From contig NC_087384.1 in the NCBI RefSeq assembly GCF_963675165.1, positions 1,262,501 through 1,326,500 on the forward strand: a stretch of DNA of 64,000 nucleotides. The letters run 5' to 3'. Shown in pieces: positions 48,818 to 60,700 of the stretch. Under the pieces are notes generated by a model that made no database searches, was not told the origin of the DNA, and worked only from the letters and a program-made list of their open reading frames with translations. A program made the translations under genes and the position numbers. Position 1 is the stretch's first letter. Each line of letters starts with the position of its first letter. This DNA comes from Halichondria panicea. Its lineage: Eukaryota > Porifera > Demospongiae > Suberitida > Halichondriidae.

Positions 48818-51800
48818 TCAAACAAACTCTTTCTTGCTACTCTTGTTTCTAAGGCCTCCGCCAAACGTGTGCTTCTTCTTATCACTGGGGGAGGGGGGTG
48901 GGGGACGTGCGGGGGCGGCATGTGGGGCAGAGAACTTGAGGACGGTAGTCTCGACTTTGACTTTGTAGAAGTCTCCAGACGGACAGCCAAAGTCTTCAGC
49001 CAACGCCGGGTGGTCCTGCATGTACATGTACATACATACTCTCACAAACACATAACAATACGTATAACAATTAGGGGTCAGTTCTTGCATGGGCACAAGA
49101 GCAATAATAACTATAACAAAATTAATATTGGCAATCAATGGAGTAATGCAATATATACCCTAGAGATGCAATGTTAAAATGAAGCTATACAGTTAGGATT
49201 TGTCATTGTGTCATTGGTACACGTTAAGTACATGTAAGTGTTATATACAGTGTATTGTACACACCTCAAACGCCAGACGTCGTGGTTTCTCTGAAAGTTT
49301 TCCAAGAATCAGTTCAGGCCTGCATAAAATTATATACACGTATAATTATACACATGTACAGTAGCTAGTGTGCTTAGATCAGTGATTGCTTTTGGGCCCA
49401 AATTTTCCGTTTGAAATGGGCCTGTTTTCAGAGCTAACTTTGAGGCCATAACTTAGGTTAGGAATGTAGCTGCATTTAGTAGCTGCTTAAATATCTATGA
49501 CATACAGTACTACAATTAATTATAATTACATGCAAAACAAGAAACTTTCAATTCACAAAATTTTCAAAATGCAGTCAAGGGATTAAACTTAGCTCTGGGT
49601 TTCATGCACTAGAATGTACAGTAGTGATAACTTACAATCGCTTGTCCTTCCCTTTAAAGTTGGCCACACTGGACTCCTCCATGATGATGTATGGGCGTGG
49701 CTTCTCCAAGTGGAGCACAACAGGAACGCTGACCTTGCTTTTCATGAGCCTCACCTGACGGGAAGATATCAAGTTAGTACCAGTGGCATCCACAATAATC
49801 TGATTGTACGGTCCTCTTAACAAAATAATACTTCTAGACACTATTATTGATTCAAGTACGGTCGTACGTACGTGTATTGTATAGTTAGACAATCGCATGT
49901 ACCTGATGGAAGATGACAATATCCCCCTCCTCATACTCAGTTGGTCGACCTATCTTCACCAGTCCACAGTTAGCAGACAATGTCATTGTGCCTGTACAGG
50001 GAGCAGCACACAAGTAACAACACATTAGTGCCAGCAGGAGTACTCCTGAAAGACTGAAAGGCTATAAGTTATAAGTCTATCAACGATTGAAGTGAATAAG
50101 TAAAATGTTTAGAGTATTTACGTTCAATTGAAAACGGTCAATTCAATCCTAAAATGAAATTTGAACTAAGCATGTGGTACAGTATACACATACAGTACCT
50201 CTGGCAGATGTCTTGACAATTCCATCCAAGTTGGTTGTGTGTAGCAGCTCGGCCATTTGGAGTGCATGGGGGAGGAGATCGTCCAGGTTGTCAGAGAGAT
50301 GGGCGGGGGTGGACGGAGAGGGGGCGTCGGCCATTGAGATGACACTGTATCCCTCGAGGAGACTGGGGTAAAGGGTGTTCGGAGGCTTCGAGGGAGAGAG
50401 GGGAGAGGTCGCCATGCTCGCAGTAATACCAGGTCTGTAAAGACAGGGGGGGAAGAATCAAGCTATGTAAGTCGGTAGCTAGTGTCACACGCAAACACTT
50501 CATTTGGGAAAGAACAGTTAAAAAAAAGTGCCAACTTAATATGTCAACATTGAATTGTAGTACATGTACAGCTACTTATTTCAGTTTCTCTGCATGCTAC
50601 TGAGAACCAGGCTACATGCACATGAGAAGTTCAATCCATATGTATAGAGATGTACACACATGCACGTGATACTTATGTACAGAACTCACTTGAGCTTCTC
50701 AGCAGTGGTACAGAACTTCTTGAGGTGTCCTGTCAAGCTCTCAAAGGCCCTCATACTGTCATCACTCACAGAACTGAGAGAGAGAGGGGGGAGAGAGAGA
50801 GAGGGGGGGAGGGAGAGGAGGAGAGAGAGAGAGGAGGGGAGATAGAGGAGGGGAGAGAGAGGAGGGGAGAGAGAGGAGGGGAGATAGAGAAGGAGAGAGG
50901 GAGGGGGGAGAGAGGGGGAGGGAGGGAGAGGGGGGGGAGAGAGGAGGGGAGATAGAGAAGGAGAGAGGGAGGGGGGAGAGAGAGGGGGAGAGAGAGAAGG
51001 GGAGATAGAGAGGGAGAGAGGGAGGGGGGGAGAGATAGAGAGGGAGAGAGAGAGGGGGGGGGAGAGGGGGGGAGAGAGGGGGGGGAGAGAGAGGGGGGGA
51101 GATAGAGAGAGGGGGGGGGGGGAGAGAGGGGGGGAGATAGAGAGAGGGGGGGGGGGGAGATAGAGAGAGAGGGGGGGGGGGGAGAGAGAGGGAGAGGGGG
51201 GTTAGCACAGCATATCAGCTCTAAAATAACTACAATGGCTGATTGCAAGCTTGACACAATGCAGAACTGTATACGTACATACGATGTACATAATGTTGAA
51301 AGTATTCTTCATAGCTACATGTACAGCCAGTAGGAACACAGAATGCTATTACTCACCGTCCTGGTTTGACAGTGCTCTCTGGGTCACCAGGAGAGCGAGG
51401 TCTGAGATGGCCCAACATTCCGGGTTGAATAGTGGCCTCCTCTTCACAAATGCTACTGCCCTGTTGGTCACTCTATAAGCAGTGAGACAAGTGCTCAATG
51501 AACACGTACACGTACATCATTACAAGCAAGTAGTAATTTTAAGCACCGATCAACAAACACAAGCCCCTCCCTCCCTCCCGTACACCACATACTTACAGAG
51601 GATAATTTCAGAGTAGTTAGTTCCGAGGTGAGCAGCTGCACTTGACTCTGGAGGTTTTCATTTTCTCTCTTTATTGCCTCCATGTTGGGCGGGGTTGGAG
51701 AAGCTCCCCAAGTGCTCATATGTGGTGGTGGTCCAGGAAATTGTCCATTATTCCACAAGCTGCTGGGAGGGGTCACGAGTACAGGGGGTGTGGATGCCAC

Positions 51801-54041
51801 GCCCCCCTGAGCCAGTGTAGCCGCTACTGTACCACCCTATGGGGTACAAGAATAATTATGCTGAATCTTGCCAAAAAAATATTGAATCTGCCATATTGTA
51901 TAAATAAAACTTACGGATATGGACCTGAGCAGCATAGCTCTCTCCATGGAGACCTGCTCCAGCACAGCGTCCAGAGCAGAGCATCCCGTACGCAGGCCAT
52001 CAGAGGTTTGGTTGAGGGACCACACTTGAGACAACTGGGACCACAGTGGGCGGAGCTGACCTCTGACCTTTTCCGTGACCTCTCTGATGAGCTTCTGACA
52101 GTCTTCATTGATGCTCTTACAGTTGTTGTAAATCTGGTCTTTCTGTGGAGACGAAAAACGGTTAGACACTTGAAGCAATAACAAGTTTATAACACTTATA
52201 GTGTTAAACAAGCTTAGCCTGCAAAACACAAACATGCATATTTGTACACCTTCACGCCCACTCCACCCACTCACCCTTAGTTTCGGGAGTCTCTTTGTTT
52301 CGTCTGAGAGAGTGGCTGCAGCTGTAGTGAGGTCTTCCTCTTTGAGGTCTATGCTCACGGAGGTGTCAGCTCTATTGTTGAATCCACTCAACTCTCGAAC
52401 CAACTTCTCGATCTGCACAAGGGGGGAGCATAATAAATAAATTATTACCCAAAATTATGATAAAATTCATATTAACAAGTCAACAGCTGCTCTACAACAT
52501 TGTATGCACTAGCTAATACATGTAATACATGGGGCCTGGTGGTGTTGGTGACTCACTGTTGCTTTGTGCTGCTGCACTATGGCTAGTTGGGCCCTCAACT
52601 GTCCCTGGTTCTTGTCCGACAGAGAGGAGAGGTCTTGCATGATCCTGCATTGGGAATAGTACAGGGAGGCAATTATCAATAGGCAGATGCTGTCATAATG
52701 GCACATGTACATGTGTGTACAGACACCCTGAACTACACACACTTCCTCCTACACACACACACACACGTGTACATGTACACATACAGTACACATGTCATTG
52801 GAAACAGTACAGGGAAGTAATTATCAACATGCTATCATAGTGGTACAGATAACACACTTCCTACACACACACACACGTATACATGTACATGCATACATAC
52901 ACATGTATGTATAGTACACATAATATATACACACAGACCTTTTCCCATCTATAAGAACTACACACATCACTCCTACACACACGCACACGCACACGCAGTC
53001 CTTACCACTGAATGGCGAGGGTAGCCTTTGCCAGAGCCTGGTGCCCTATCTCAGTGAGCTCCTTGTAACCACGACTACTAAACAGAGTCACCTCTCTGGA
53101 CACAAACTTAGAGAGCTCCTCCAGCCCCTCTAGCTGAGACTTCTGCTGAGCACTCATGTGGTGGATCATGTGGACCATCTCATCAGCTAGCTTGTGCTGC
53201 ATAGGGAGGGGATTGAATATATCATCCAATAGAGGCAGGATTGTGCTGTACAAGTGTTGTATTACTAGGAGAGGCAGAATCATTATAGAATTATCAATAG
53301 AAGCAGGATTGTATTGTAACAAAGTACCGTATAGCGGGTAATTTTCGTGGGATAAAAAATTCGTTCAACTCGAGAAACGGGTGGTTTTCGTGAGTGTTTA
53401 ATCTCGTTGCCTGCCTGCATTTCTACGTTCCGGTAAGCCACGCCTACGTTAAAATTTCGTGAAGGTCAGCTTGCCCACGAAAATAACGAATATTTTACCC
53501 CACGAAAAATTACCCGCTATACGGTATGCACTTACATCCACTATCTGAGATACACACAGGTTCACATCGTGGATCACAAATCCTGCAAAGAGAAAAAAAT
53601 AATTATACAGAGCAATTATAAGCTATGGCTTCCTCGTTACGTATTGAGCACCATCATTACATCATCATATACACTGTATTACTACAATAGCTGAACGCAT
53701 GCCAAGGAGGGGTTTCCCCCACCCACCCACTCACCCAGTCCGGCAAGGCAGTTGTAGTCTGGATTCAGTGCTTCTGTCTCCATCAGGTTGATGGGCAGGA
53801 GGTACAGTTTAGCGTGGCCCCCACTGCCACCAGACTCCTTTAATAGTTGGGCAAAATGTTCTGAGGAGAGAGGGGAGAGGGGAGAGATGAAGTGGTGGGA
53901 CAGCATGGAGAAGAGGACCTGGGAGCGCATCGGGATGTGGGTGTGGCTAAACACCTCGTTCATCAGACTATCAGCACTGTGTGTGTGTGTGCGTGTGTGT
54001 GTGTGTGTGCGTGTGCGTGCGTGTGTGTGTGTGTGTGCGTG

Positions 54042-54085
<44 letters not shown>

Positions 54086-54111
54086 CGTGCGTGTGTGTGT
54101 GTGTGTGTGCG

Positions 54112-54162
<51 letters not shown>

Positions 54163-55552
54163 GTGTGTGTGTGTGTGCGTGTGTGTGGGGGGCACAATTA
54201 ACTAAATAACATCCAGTAAAATATAGAGGTCTCATAGTACCAGTACATGTAGGAAGACACATCCTTTGCTCCTGATATACAATGTACCGTATAGTGGGTA
54301 ATTTTCGTATGAACTGTCCAATTAAACAATCAACAATTTAACTATGTGGTAGAATAATTTGCATTTAATGCTCCACAATACGAAATATACTAAAATGTCC
54401 ACCATACGAAAATAACTTGCTATATGGTGTAAAGGCTCTTTTTAGGCTATTCCCTAAGTTACTTTCAACTGAATGAAGATTGTGCTAAAAAGTTTCTGTG
54501 TACTCACGTGATTAGTGGATCATTCATGACCTTCATGGAGGTCCCGTGCAGGAGGTTGATGATCTCAATCTTGGACGTGATGATGTCGTCCACGGCTAAG
54601 TAGAACTCACTGAATGTCATTCTCTCGGCTGGGTCTAACTTGAGCTCGGCTCTCAACAGCTGGTTCATCTTTTCCCGGAAGGGCCTGTTGATATCACACC
54701 ACCACATTCAGTGATCAACATCTGGACAATAGTTACTCAACTACCCAAAACCACTCAGTCAAAAAGCCTCAAAAACAGCTAGAGCATTTAGACTGAAAGG
54801 AACCCTTGATTTACAGTTTGTAAGCACATCATACTTATGTACATGTAACATAAAGTGTATTTTAATTTTCAAATTGAAGAGTCTTAACTAAAGTTATGGG
54901 CCAATCAAATCCCTCCACCCACTCACTCTGAGAGTCTGTCGTTGACGACTGCGGGCAGCTCATTGATGTAGTTGATCTTCCTGGAGTGAGGCACTCTCTC
55001 AAAGGCTATGGCATCTCCCTTGTGCTTGAGGATGCGTGGAATGTCTTGCAATTGCTGTAAGAACACAAACATGGACACCTGTCAATCATGGATAACTATT
55101 CCACCGTGTACACTCTTGCTATAACTATACCTACACAGGAATTATTTTAGTGCGGGTTACAATTTTCTACCACCCGATTGGAGAAAGTAAATTTCCTACT
55201 TGCTTTTCAACCACCCGCTTAATATTTGGAACCAACATTTTCACCCACTTGTGCAAAATTCCCACTAATTGACCTTAAGTATCACATGCAAGGTGTGTAA
55301 TAATATTAACTTACAGCGTAGAAACCGCACTGCCCCACGATGACCTTGTAGAGGAGTGCTCCAATGGACCAGATGTCCACCTTGTCATCGTAGTGCTGTA
55401 CAAAAGACAGTAGGTACACGCATGACACTCAACTGTAGCGCTAGATTATTTCCTTAGATGGAATTTGCACTTTTTAATATAATATGGGAAATGAAACTGT
55501 TAGAATCACCTCTCCGGGATGGAAGACACATCGCAGAGCTTCTGGGGCCTGT

Positions 55553-55583
<31 letters not shown>

Positions 55584-57442
55584 CACAGCATTAAGTAAAA
55601 GAATACACTCGTTTTGTGCAACAACAAACCATTATGTCATCACTAAAAATAGCAAAAGGCCATTAAAATGTCACATGGTTCAGAAAGCAGAACTACCCGA
55701 GTGCACAGTATCGGGTTACACTCAGTACAGGTGCTAAACACACAGCGTAGTCTAAATACGGGCATATGACCTAGCTAGCATAAGAAGAATTTGTTACTGG
55801 AACTAGGTAAGCGATTCATTCTCAACAACTGCTCAAATGAATACGCTTAGACACAACCCCACCTGACCTATGGTTGATATTTTAGGTGTAATTCCCAAAT
55901 CCTGTGTTTGTATCATATGTACATGTGTCAAGTCTATTTATGGGCATGCAGTGAAACATTGCTATCATTCTAAGCTGAGTGTTGTGTGATAACAGTAGTG
56001 ACAAGGGACTCGGTGTTGCAAGCATCGCATGATGTTATGGATCCATTTCATTCCTAGCTAGTTATTGGAATGGGGACTGTGTGTGTGTGCTCACCATGAA
56101 CACAGGGGTCCCAGCCAGAGAGGTCATATCAATCGGCTTCATACCCTCGTCCTTGAAATGGCGAGCAAACCCAAAGTCAGCCAGCTTGATCTGTAAGGAA
56201 TAGACACTGTTGACATAGCTGTCCCTTTAGTAACAGTGTGTGTGACTAGGCAGAGGTGAGTGATTCATGGCTGACATTGTTCTCTTTACAATACATAGTT
56301 GAGCAGCAGCATTGTTCCTACAGTGTACTATATACGGCTATAAGCTTCCTTGTCGGAGACTGAGTTCTCACCATCATCTTGCCAGTGGTGGGGTGCTTCT
56401 TGATGAGGATGTTGCCTGGCTTCAGATCACGATGGACAATGTTCTGCTCTCTCAGTGCCTTCATGCCTTGGGCTGAACGGGCATATAATATCAACTACAA
56501 TTGAGCATACAGCATAGTTACATTGTGCATACATGTAGAAGTAGCCTATTCAAACTATTTTGTATGCTAACACTACATGCAAAAGAGGATACAATAATGG
56601 TCAGGGGGGAAAGAAATCACTAGATCGAAAGGACAACAGTACTAAGCTGTTACATGTACTCACCAAGTTGGTATAGGAAGATAATGATGTCATACTCTTT
56701 GAAGGGCTTGATCTTGACAAGATGGTCGAGGTCAAATTCACAGAGCTCCATCACCAGCACAATGTGTTGCTTCAGCTCCTATAATGAAGGAGGGAGGGTA
56801 CCAATATTATAATGAGGTTTCTGACGTGTTTGCATGAGATAAATAACTACAAGTATAAGTAGACCAGTTAGGGTGTCAAAGTCAGCTTGTGCCAAATGTA
56901 TCCATATCTATTAACTCTATTATATAGCGAGACTGTTGGCATTACGTACCTGGACATGGAATAGATGGACCACGTACTCACACCCTCGGAGAAGCTTCAT
57001 AATTCTTATCTCTCTCTCCAAATTCTCTCTGACTTTCGGGTCTTGCTTGAAAAACTCTTTACGAACGACCTTCACGGCGACCTCTGAAGACCCATCCTAC
57101 AAGACACACAGCTAGAGTCAACGCTATGGCCGGCTATACCCAGTGTGTCAGTGTGTACGTGTGTGCACTCAGACTATTGCACCTTAAGCCTAACCTTATA
57201 CGTACTTATACAGTGTATGCATGCTTATAGTATAGTCATATAACTCTCGTGCAGTTAGGCTAGTGACTCACTGAGGTCCATCCAAGATAGACCTCTCCAA
57301 AGGATCCCTTGCCCACTCTGCTGCCCAAGTGCCAGACGTAGCCTTCACAGTGAGCTAGGTCTTGTGGACACACTCGCTTGAGCGTAGACAGGTTGGGCCG
57401 CTGCTTGGGCTGAGCCAGTACTAAGTTAATAGACTCTGACAT
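48818..57442 (-). CDS. TBK1/IKK-epsilon-like kinase with a FIP200/ATG11 Claw-like C terminus (1,041 aa, 23 exons)
   Basis: Exons, high to low: 57272-57442 (ATG), 56950-57096, 56664-56778, 56372-56472, 56095-56190, 55510-55548, 55315-55395, 54927-55054, 54508-54684, 53735-53976, 53536-53582, 53006-53196, 52557-52644, 52275-52412, 51915-52142, 51597-51836, 51357-51472, 50690-50773, 50199-50434, 49903-49991, 49636-49754, 49265-49319, 48818-49015 (TGA). They sum to 3,126 nt, and every junction keeps phase. Kinase about 37-327: glycine loop VGKGSFGEVYLG (43-54), VAVK lysine 66, HRDLKPGN with Asp160, DFG at 183-185, activation-loop SLAGT with Ser202 at the place of TBK1 Ser172, and an IKK-like C lobe. 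A probable ubiquitin-like domain (about 330-410), a helical and proline-rich middle, a coiled coil (about 715-743) and a Claw-like end (about 889-1000: EEGDIVIFHQ, LILGKLSEK, GDFYKVKVE) follow. The kinase is firm; Claw identity is by motif. Confidence 0.8.
50774..51199. repeat. Polypurine/polypyrimidine tract in an intron
   Basis: About 425 bp of almost pure G and A on the plus strand, in units such as GGGGGGAGAGAGAGAG. On the gene strand it is a pyrimidine tract that ends exactly in the acceptor (ctctctcag) of the exon at 50690-50773. Such tracts can form triplex or H-DNA and are length-unstable; the effect here is unknown. The long frames across it are composition artefacts. Confidence 0.95.
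52650..53000. repeat. Intronic minisatellite with CA runs
   Basis: About three diverged tandem units of roughly 110-180 bp share GTACAGGGAGGCAATTATCAA or close forms, TGCT(G/A)TCATA, then ACTTCCT and a CA run with TACATGTACA. It fills the intron between the exons ending at 52644 and starting at 53006. Confidence 0.7.
53325..53526. mobile_element. TACCGTATAGCGGG-family MITE, complete 202-bp copy
   Basis: Near-perfect terminal inverted repeats: TACCGTATAGCGGGTAATTT at 53325 and the complement ending CTATACGGTA at 53526. The middle includes AAGCCACGCCTACGTTAAAA and GGTCAGCTTGCCCACGAA, shared with the copy ending at 63309. It lies in an intron of the kinase gene, ending nine bases before the exon at 53536-53582 (donor side on the gene strand). 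Confidence 0.88.
53977..54187. repeat. (TG)n/(GTGC)n microsatellite reaching a splice acceptor
   Basis: About 210 bp of TG with regular GC interruptions. On the gene strand it is a CA repeat that ends in the acceptor AG of the exon 53735-53976. Long open frames exist in several phases, all artefacts of the dinucleotide. Confidence 0.95.
54285..54431. mobile_element. TACCGTATAGCGGG-family MITE, short diverged copy
   Basis: The left end is TACCGTATAGTGGGTAATTT at 54285. The right end is a diverged complement (TACGAAAATAACTTGCTATA then TGGTGTA) ending near 54431. It is about 147 bp and lies in a kinase-gene intron. Confidence 0.75.
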
Positions 57443-57750: not shown

Positions 57751-60700
57751 TTAGAATAGGTCAGGTAAGTTGAGTTTGTCCCAGTCTCCAGTTTGCTTGG
57801 CCTCCCAATAACCTCCTTTGTACACATGAAACATTGTGTTGGTGAGAGGGTCGTATTCTTTGTTAAACCACACTGGCTTGTAAGTGGCCTCCTCTTTGAG
57901 TCTCTCTGCCTCCTCAACATCTCCTCTTGCTGCTGCCTTTGCTGCACGTTCTGCTAGTGCCTCTCTCTTCCGACGCTTGGCTCTTTGTTTCTCTTCAAGA
58001 CGTATCTGGAAGAACAATGGATACACAGTTACTATACAACCAACAGCATACAGTTTAGTATAGGCGTGCAATCCAGTTGATATCTACCTAAACAATTGTG
58101 GCTAGTTTCAGACCTCTAAAATCCCCAACTTGGATTGCGAAATCTTGCATCTATGTAGTCCTTGAAGCTAGCTTTGCTAAGCTATTTGAATTCTAAGCCC
58201 TTACATATAACACGTACAGTGTAGAACAACACAAAGGTATACTCATGCATCCTCACCTTCTCCTCACTGGCTTTAGTGAAGTCCCCCTCCTCCATGATCC
58301 TCTGGTCTGGTCTAAAGCGGGAGTCAGTGGGGGCGACCCCAGCTTCGTGTTCGTTGAGTGTGCACGAGAAAGGAGTAAATTCATGATTACCAGGTCTGCA
58401 GGGGAGAGAATTATTACTATTATCAAATTACAAGCAGTTTTTATTTACCAAAACAACACACAATTAGTTAAAGGTTAATATGTACCATCCACTTACTCTG
58501 ATTGTTCAGCTTTCCACAGTGTCTTGTAAGGACCTGTCGTCAACTTCCTCCCCTCTCCACCTGTTACCTTGGCAACATCGTACTGTTGATCCCAGTAACC
58601 CTTGACAACATAACGAATAGTCCCATCAACATCCTTCATATGCCCAGTGACCTGGGAGGGGATTACAAAAAATTTTATGTGTATGGAAATCTTGAAGCCT
58701 TGAAAAATGAAAGTAGCATTTATATTTTAAGTACCTTTCTCTGTTGTTCCCTGGATAAGTAACTGTAGGCATGGAACTTGAGCAGCCCCTCTTCTCTTGT
58801 GGTGTGATTAGTTATCTTGATATCGCCAGACTATAGGTGTGCAGTACATGTCAATCACATATTATGCTATACACACAAGCTACAAGGAATAAGATAACTC
58901 GAGAGCTACTTTGTATTTCAGGGATATGCTTAGGCTATTATATAAAAGGCAAATTTGCGAGTTGGATGAGACTAGTTATCACTTGGGCACATGGAGACTG
59001 TTACAAATGTACCTGGTCAATCCACAGAGTCCCTACTATGATGTTGTGGATGGTAGTGACACACTTGCACCAGGTGTAGTGACTCTTGGTCTTGTGGAAC
59101 ACCACATGACAAGTGCCCAATGGAAGAATGGTGAAATATTTGCCTCTAAACTGTGAGGCTGCTGTGTACTCCTGCCAGAATGTCCAGTCCTTGCTCTCTG
59201 TGTACTCAGCAAACATGGGGGGATGGTGACTCACCTACGCGTGTAGCGGGAGGGGACAAAGGTCAAACCAAGCAGCAATATATACATTACCATCCAATGC
59301 ACAAGTTTAAATACGGACAGAGTACAGACTAACTTGCTCAAAGAGGCATCTCCATCCCATCTCAGCTCTCCTGTCACACTCGTAGGTTTCTCCAAGCATG
59401 GGGTTGAAAGGTTTGTTGGCTCTTGCACCAGCAGTGGCAGCATAGGGGGACGTCACAAATGCACCCACGTACGCCATCTCCTCCAGTGTGTCCCGGGCAT
59501 TCACTGCTCTATCAAGTATATCTGTATACACCAATTCTTCTGTTATTCTCTGAAGCATGGACAGGGGCTCATTGAAGTGGACCTGGAGGGAGGGGGTGAG
59601 GGGTTATTAACATTGCAAATGGAACCCACCAGTAGCTCTGGCTAGCAACACAATACATGCTACATTTCAAGTGCTTTTACTTCTGTTAGCTCTAGCTACC
59701 ACTAAAATATAAACGATACCAGCATACGTATTGTGAGGTGGTCTTACTGGCATGGATATCTTGGAAAGGTCTTTGCCGATGCAGTTCTTCATGACGGACC
59801 AGAGACTGAATCTAGTGTTGGGTCGAGGGGGAACAACTGTCCTCCTCTGGGGGAGGGTGGGCCGGGGATCAACAAAGAAGCTGGGAGCAGGCTCATCAGG
59901 AACCTAGCAAATAAGGAGAAGTTTTAAATGAGGTAGTTGCAAATAATTATATATGCTACAATGGTTCTGAACACAATAGAATCAGGCCATGTTTCGTGGG
60001 TATACATGTATAAATAAACTTACTGTTATCTTCCTGTCTGAGCTCACGGGGTGTTTCCTATCAGTGGACGGAGATACTAGACCATGAGCCTCATTCAAAG
60101 ACCTTGTGTCAGGGCTTGTCTTGGTCTCAGCAAGAGTGGGTGTGGTAGGGCTGGAGCTTGTTCTGACCCAGTCTTCGTCAGAAATCTCAGGGGCATCAAA
60201 GAATTGATCATCATCGTCTAGTTCTAGAGACCTTGCTACAAAATTTGTATTTGCTCCACTTCTCTGAAATTGTTGCCTTGCTTGATTTTCCATACGTGTC
60301 ATTTGCTTGGCCAGTGTCTCCATGTTTTCCTCTAGTTTAAGTCGACGAGAATGCTCTTGTTGACGAACTCGAGACCACCTCCTCTCTGTACTTCTCGCCT
60401 GAACCACAAACTCATCTGCTGCCTGGAGAGGAAGAGAAAGTGTTTCACAGCTAGCTAGAGCTATATATTACAGCAACGTGTCATGTGATCATCAGTCAGG
60501 GCAATGTGAGGTTTACTTTCATACACTGGCAGGTTGTGTTTGAGTGTTTGGGTCTATTGTGCTGTCCTCCAACACATCAGTAAAAGTACATCAGAAAATG
60601 TTGAAACATTATTAAAACGTGGGGTGAATACACTATACTATACAGTACAATGCAACACATTTATCAATAGGACTAACTCTACAAATATTGTAGTGTTTAG

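Follow-up and report, generated by a model that had tools for sequence, protein, structure and literature searches.

In vertebrates, TBK1 and FIP200 share the receptors on which they act. The C-terminal Claw of FIP200 is described in passages of PMC6477179 and PMC7946963 as a dimer that binds motifs of p62, CCPG1 and optineurin, and, according to the passages of PMC7946963, phosphorylation of optineurin by TBK1 strengthens its binding to the Claw. The nearest published idea on the relationship of the two proteins is found in passages of Shi et al. 2020 (PMC7337493), where TBK1 is proposed to be a kinase/FIP200 chimera and a shared origin is suggested by the structural likeness of TBK1 and FIP200. 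Here, a 64,000-nucleotide stretch of the genome of the sponge Halichondria panicea (NC_087384.1, positions 1,262,501 to 1,326,500; hereafter the window) was analyzed, and a minus-strand gene at 48818..57442 was found to encode an IKK-family kinase that carries a C-terminal Claw. We consider it rather probable that this gene represents a sponge-wide third kind of IKK-family kinase ('Claw-IKK'), predicted to have a kinase, a ubiquitin-like domain (ULD), a helical scaffold-like region, a short coil and a Claw on one chain, and to act by docking and crowding. The kinase, the ULD, the Claw, their order, their conservation in sponges, the membership in the IKK family and the presence of separate TBK1 and IKK-alpha/beta genes were established by sequence comparison; of the two halves of the statement, the mechanism is the less secure.

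Structure of the gene at 48818..57442

The exon chain was rebuilt from the sequence and 23 minus-strand exons were obtained between 57442 and 48818. Each of the 22 introns is of the GT...AG type, and the exon lengths total 3,126 nt including the stop codon, which gives 1,041 aa in one frame with no internal stops. This is exactly the in-phase chain of the initial annotation, and the motifs named in it (HRDLKPGN, SLAGT and those of the C-terminus) were found in their places, namely HRDLKPGN at residue 158, TSLAGT at 201, EEGDIVIF at 909 (exon 20), LILGKLSEK at 961 (exon 22) and FYKVKV at 992 (exon 23). The features of the gene are listed below; the exon-level Claw scores are high by construction, as the window sequence is part of the profile.

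48818..57442, minus strand: whole coding region, 23 exons, 1,041 aa (exon chain, splice borders, full-length orthologues)
54508..57442, minus strand: exons 1-9, protein kinase domain, residues 38-319 (Pfam Pkinase, E 2.2e-54; catalytic residues)
56095..56190, minus strand: exon 5, DFG and activation loop with SLAGT (sequence and orthologue alignment A1)
53735..54684, minus strand: exons 9-10, ULD, about residues 320-425 (profile-profile match to the TBK1 ULD)
51915..53582, minus strand: exons 11-15, helical scaffold-like region (position; weak TBK1 scaffold profile match)
50199..51836, minus strand: exons 16-19, Pro-rich linker and short leucine-zipper-like coil, residues about 715-736 (HALZ below cut-off; sequence reading)
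49903..49991, minus strand: exon 20, Claw, EEGDIVIF strand (19.6 bits, Claw profile including the window sequence)
49636..49754, minus strand: exon 21, Claw, PRPYIIMEESSVANF strand (26.9 bits, same profile)
49265..49319, minus strand: exon 22, Claw, LILGKLSEK strand (11.4 bits, same profile)
48818..49015, minus strand: exon 23, Claw, EDFGCPSGDFYKVKV, and Pro/Lys-rich tail (18.9 bits, same profile)

The other Pfam models above their cut-offs were kinase-like only, and the HALZ match of the coil region (E 0.0065) was under its cut-off. The catalytic K and E, HRD, N, DFG, APE and the activation-loop serine are all present in the kinase. The serine of SLAGT, which presumably takes the place of S172 of TBK1, is invariant in all 12 members of alignment A1. 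Directly after the kinase, a profile-profile comparison revealed a match to the ULD of TBK1 with a probability of 97.2% (E 2.9e-11), and the post-kinase part matched human IKK-beta at E 2.8e-6. The best matches of the ULD profile in the PDB were ubiquitin variants (E 0.003), and the ULD-only match to the FIP200 NTD was weak (E 0.011).

Long CA/GT and C/T simple repeats are located inside introns 9 and 17 (window 53990-54190 and 50790-51200). About 310 nt upstream of the start codon lies the end of another minus-strand gene (window 57751-58500 and beyond), presumably encoding an oxysterol-binding-protein-like protein; the two genes are arranged head-to-tail on the same strand with very tight spacing.

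Orthologues in sponges and the C-terminal Claw

A protein search with the kinase part revealed sponge proteins from Amphimedon queenslandica (67% identity in the kinase part), Dysidea avara (56%), Sycon ciliatum (51%), Corticium candelabrum (50%) and Oopsacas minuta (39-43%), with further relatives beside them. An identity of 75% was found for protein P0001, which we take from its gene name (Em0015g1136a) to be from Ephydatia muelleri. We take these species to cover the demosponges, calcareous sponges, homoscleromorphs and glass sponges, that is, all four sponge classes, and the age of the Claw-IKK arrangement is no less than that of the sponges sampled. In a profile search, 7,999 candidates were scored, 3,127 of them passed the E 1e-10 threshold and the best 120 of the 3,127 were inspected. 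Among the matches listed, 15 sponge-type proteins scored 727-1129 bits and the next protein 390 bits; no non-sponge member was found among the best 120 of the 3,127, which does not imply absence outside sponges. A protein search with residues 250-1041 found nothing, an empty answer that means little since orthologues exist, and among the contigs of GTDB 12 pattern matches included no relative.

Several orthologues are continuous from the kinase to the C-terminus. P0003 is an uninterrupted frame of 998 aa with 77% identity across 81% of the kinase part, and in the multiple alignment it aligns with exons 2-23 of the window gene with an identity per exon from 4/27 to 27/27 (62/139 for exons 20-23 combined). 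P0004 (918 aa in a contig of 2,885 nt) and P0006 (854 aa in 2,837 nt) are likewise encoded in one frame each. We infer that these contigs of 2.8-3.8 kb are cDNA contigs, because the longest contig of P0003 measures 3,843 nt and the window gene contains 22 introns over 8.6 kb. In the H. panicea genome itself, all 14 matches of the post-kinase part fell in the Claw-IKK locus. Since such continuous orthologues come from several independent data sets, the region from kinase to Claw is a single predicted gene in the sponge family. The joining of kinase and Claw in one gene, put forward in the initial annotation, is therefore upheld by proteins spanning the full length, and the same domain order does occur in other sponges.

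The C-terminus was compared using a profile of 11 sponge-type C-termini, with the window sequence included and FIP200 excluded. Against human FIP200 as a single target, this profile gave E 3.4e-13. When the re-aligned profile was run against 177,635 distinct PDB sequences, all eight matches below 1e-6 were FIP200 Claws (E 3.4e-8 to 1.9e-7), and the three others listed were at 0.37 or above. Profile-profile comparison of the sponge C-termini with human FIP200 gave a probability of 96.9% (E 1.4e-10). In addition, the Sycon and Corticium orthologues are labelled with Pfam PF10377 (ATG11) in the database's own annotation, and four of the 12 members match the ATG11 Pfam model at E <= 1 (best 1.3e-6). 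By sequence homology, the C-terminus is clearly a Claw of the FIP200/ATG11 type, and the likeness to FIP200 first noticed in the annotation is borne out by the orthologue profiles.

A Claw profile that included human FIP200 detected a Claw in 14 of the 220 proteins listed, every one of the sponge type, with the best protein lacking a Claw at E 0.096; 10 of the 14 had trained the profile and four are near copies, so that these scores are partly by construction. The Claw is present in 14 of the 16 sponge-type kinases (P0001-P0010, P0012-P0017) and absent from the other 204 listed proteins, among which P0122, a fragment of a family member (375 aa) that ends before the Claw region, is counted. The two sponge-type kinases without it are the Ephydatia model and P0009, a partial protein of 669 aa. 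In the Ephydatia model, the Claw and the first part of the ULD are missing, and the end of the model, which aligns poorly with the orthologues, is probably mis-predicted. The last 20 residues of P0009 resemble one Claw strand (PYMYLTPHCYYFGL), and this end is perhaps a splice form or a truncated model. A search of the H. panicea genome with PF10377 and the human Claw gave no candidates, and it was uninformative, as the Claw of the window gene was missed too.

Position within the IKK family

A canonical TBK1 gene was found in the same genome (G000:C13:3568600-3578500), with 27-60% identity per exon to human TBK1. Behind the kinase exons of this gene, an open frame resembles the ULD of TBK1 and contains a PITVF stretch. 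A canonical IKK-alpha/beta gene is also present (G000:C6:2209000-2218500; 34-62% per exon to human IKK-beta), together with a partial near copy (G000:C2:4711500-4721000) whose matching exons are almost identical and which is a recent duplication, a haplotig or an assembly duplicate. At the C13 and C6 loci, exon-level Claw scores over about 19 kb each did not exceed 5.3 bits, the 3' ends of these genes not being delimited. Two matches on C16 of the same genome that run past the kinase were read as other kinases and not as IKKs. Clusters of similar kinase genes with long open frames were observed at G000:C9:535466-620945 and C17:814306-825090.

The final tree included the TBK1 and IKK-alpha/beta of H. 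panicea, and three long rows were removed from it. The sponge Claw kinases formed one clade in all trees (100/98 to 100/100). Their grouping with TBK1 and IKK-alpha/beta was supported at 99/98 (97/95 and 92/87 in earlier trees; 88/82, 91/79 and 98/94 with rows left out), in agreement with the initial assignment to the IKK family. TBK1 and IKK-alpha/beta paired to the exclusion of the Claw kinases at 97/89 (96/87 and 93/88 earlier), a pairing of two long branches which, according to a warning of the tree program, may attract each other. In the final tree, neither a sister position of the Claw kinases to TBK1 (p 0.105) nor one to IKK-alpha/beta (p 0.104) was rejected, and the corresponding values in earlier trees were about 0.1 and about 0.3. 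Holding them with the TBK1 of H. panicea alone (p 4e-16) or with its IKK-alpha/beta alone (p 6e-4) fitted far worse. The H. panicea TBK1 falls inside the TBK1 clade, which contains no Claw kinase (100/100), and the H. panicea IKK-alpha/beta falls inside the IKK-alpha/beta clade.

The Claw kinases thus appear to be a third branch of the IKK family that split off early, sister to TBK1 plus IKK-alpha/beta. The more specific TBK1/IKK-epsilon-like identity of the initial annotation did not hold: the genome contains a separate TBK1 gene, as had been thought worth looking for, as well as IKK-alpha/beta, and orthology of Claw-IKK to TBK1 was ruled out by this gene and the tree. With separate TBK1, IKK-alpha/beta and Claw-IKK genes, three lineages of the IKK family are therefore present in one sponge genome.

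Possible function, alternative explanations and comparison with known systems

In the mechanism that we favour, the coil and the Claw would make the Claw-IKK chain dimeric, and the Claw would dock on cargo receptors or adaptors via short acidic-hydrophobic motifs in them. Docking would cluster the kinase on cargo or condensates, where the crowded kinase domains could phosphorylate each other at the SLAGT serine as well as nearby receptors. One molecule would then do the jobs that are split in vertebrates between FIP200 (docking) and TBK1 (phosphorylation). Analogies exist in the dimeric, receptor-binding Claw of FIP200, in the effect of TBK1 on optineurin and in fission yeast, where, according to the abstract of PMC7511232, Atg11 serves mainly to dimerize Atg1.

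Several results weigh against the Claw-IKK explanation as a whole. A PDB search with the ULD-scaffold part as a single sequence found no TBK1, IKK or FIP200 chain, only chance matches, and with a profile of this part none was present in the best 60 of 98 PDB matches. Without the ULD, the match to the TBK1 scaffold was weak (E 0.0023, against 0.041 for the reversed control; probability 12.7%), in a region that has diverged too far for a good test. In the single-sequence PDB search, ULK2 and ULK1 (115 and 114 bits) ranked over TBK1 (84 bits). The window protein alone gives no Claw match in Pfam or the PDB, and pairwise alignment of its C-terminus with the human Claw was not significant (shuffle p ~0.08); when the entire protein was used, the top local alignment with the Claw lay in the kinase. 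The Claw assignment became secure only with the orthologues, and a place in the ATG11 family, for which the initial annotation had suggested a profile search, was found with the orthologues and not with the window protein by itself. Finally, R1573 of FIP200 corresponds to D and K1569 to A in the window, in a loop that is hard to align, both positions being variable among sponges, and other positions of the FIP200 pocket differ as well.

In FIP200, R1573 and K1569 make contact with phosphate and acidic residues of receptor motifs, and a passage of PMC6477179 reports that R1573D almost abolishes p62 binding. Of K1569, R1573 and F1574 of the FIR-binding pocket, only F1574 is kept in the window; F1582 is also F, and R1584 is K. 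Yeast Atg11 likewise lacks K1569 and R1573 and, according to passages of PMC7946963, may bind by another mode. Therefore, receptor binding is compatible with the loss of these residues; a docking mode unlike that of FIP200 is possible for the sponge Claw, and the receptor binding named in the initial annotation is putative.

The same residues bear on the explanation that the Claw was kept only for dimerization or for a partner outside autophagy, with signalling like that of an ordinary IKK. This agrees with the aspartate at the place of the phosphate-binding arginine and the loss of the neighbouring lysine, with the dimerization of the FIP200 Claw via strand beta-0 given in literature passages, and with the names IKK-beta-like or TBK1-like that NCBI gives to the orthologues. 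We find this explanation doubtful all the same, in view of the different binding mode suggested for yeast Atg11 without this pair of residues and the presence of canonical IKK-alpha/beta and TBK1 genes beside Claw-IKK. The ranking of ULK2 and ULK1 in the single-sequence search, and two earlier trees in which joining the Claw kinases to ULK was not rejected (p 0.072 and 0.172), would fit a fusion of a ULK/Atg1-type kinase with FIP200, its own partner. This is improbable: the final tree rejected that grouping (p 0.005) in favour of the well-supported IKK clade, on which the ULK-type identity was set aside, the ULD follows the kinase as in IKKs, and no ULK C-terminal domain was found by Pfam in the window protein. 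Wrong chaining of two adjacent genes could be suspected because an intron containing a long simple repeat precedes the Claw exons; the continuous orthologues in several data sets, single-frame contigs of 2.8-3.8 kb among them, make such an artefact extremely improbable.

Two accounts of the origin of Claw-IKK, both of which we hold only tentatively, can be set against each other. A gain on the sponge stem, in which an IKK-family kinase acquired a Claw (e.g., from FIP200) that other IKKs never had, may have occurred. It is consistent with the restriction of the Claw to sponge-type members among the 220 listed proteins and with the sister positions to TBK1 or IKK-alpha/beta left standing by the final tree, whereas the best tree sets the Claw kinases outside both and the resemblance between TBK1 and FIP200 in the ULD-scaffold points to a possible joint arrival of scaffold and Claw. 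Conversely, the original IKK form might survive as Claw-IKK, with sponges keeping all three kinds. A ULK-like kinase would have been fused to a FIP200/Atg11-type protein (ULD-scaffold, coil and Claw) before animal diversification, and TBK1 and IKK-alpha/beta would descend from this form after loss of the Claw. If so, innate-immune IKK signalling arose out of a selective-autophagy scaffold.

No description of a kinase-Claw protein was found in the open-licence literature. Passages of a study of TLR pathway evolution list an IKK among Amphimedon genes (PMC3517549), and those of an NF-kB review mention IKK sites on sponge NF-kB (PMC13042239); the Claw is not named in the passages of either. The 'IKK-beta-like' proteins of Amphimedon, Sycon and Oopsacas are not ordinary IKK-beta, a point of importance when NF-kB signalling in sponges is described.

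A comparison with known systems indicated that Claw-IKK shares with TBK1/IKK-epsilon the ULD directly after the kinase, an SxxGT activation loop and the kinase clade. However, TBK1/IKK-epsilon carry no Claw in the listed proteins and have a separate gene in the H. panicea genome, and the APE kept in all 12 Claw kinases is HPD in human TBK1. IKK-alpha and IKK-beta have the same kinase-ULD order and belong to the same clade, but their gene is again separate and showed no Claw exons in about 19 kb at its locus. ULK1/Atg1, the partner of FIP200/Atg11, resembles Claw-IKK in its high single-sequence kinase score, whereas the sponge kinases group with the IKKs in the tree and lack the ULK C-terminal domain. 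FIP200 (RB1CC1) and Atg11 share the C-terminal Claw; in literature passages FIP200 has a ULD-scaffold too, but at its N-terminus, and it differs in having no kinase, in its length of 1,594 aa (1,041 aa for the window protein) and in the K1569 and R1573 lost in Claw-IKK. A protein with kinase, ULD and Claw on one chain is the intermediate kind that the idea of Shi et al. calls for, which makes this idea testable. In the sponge Claw-IKK, an immune-type kinase of the IKK family is joined to the Claw, the domain with which the autophagy machinery grips cargo receptors.

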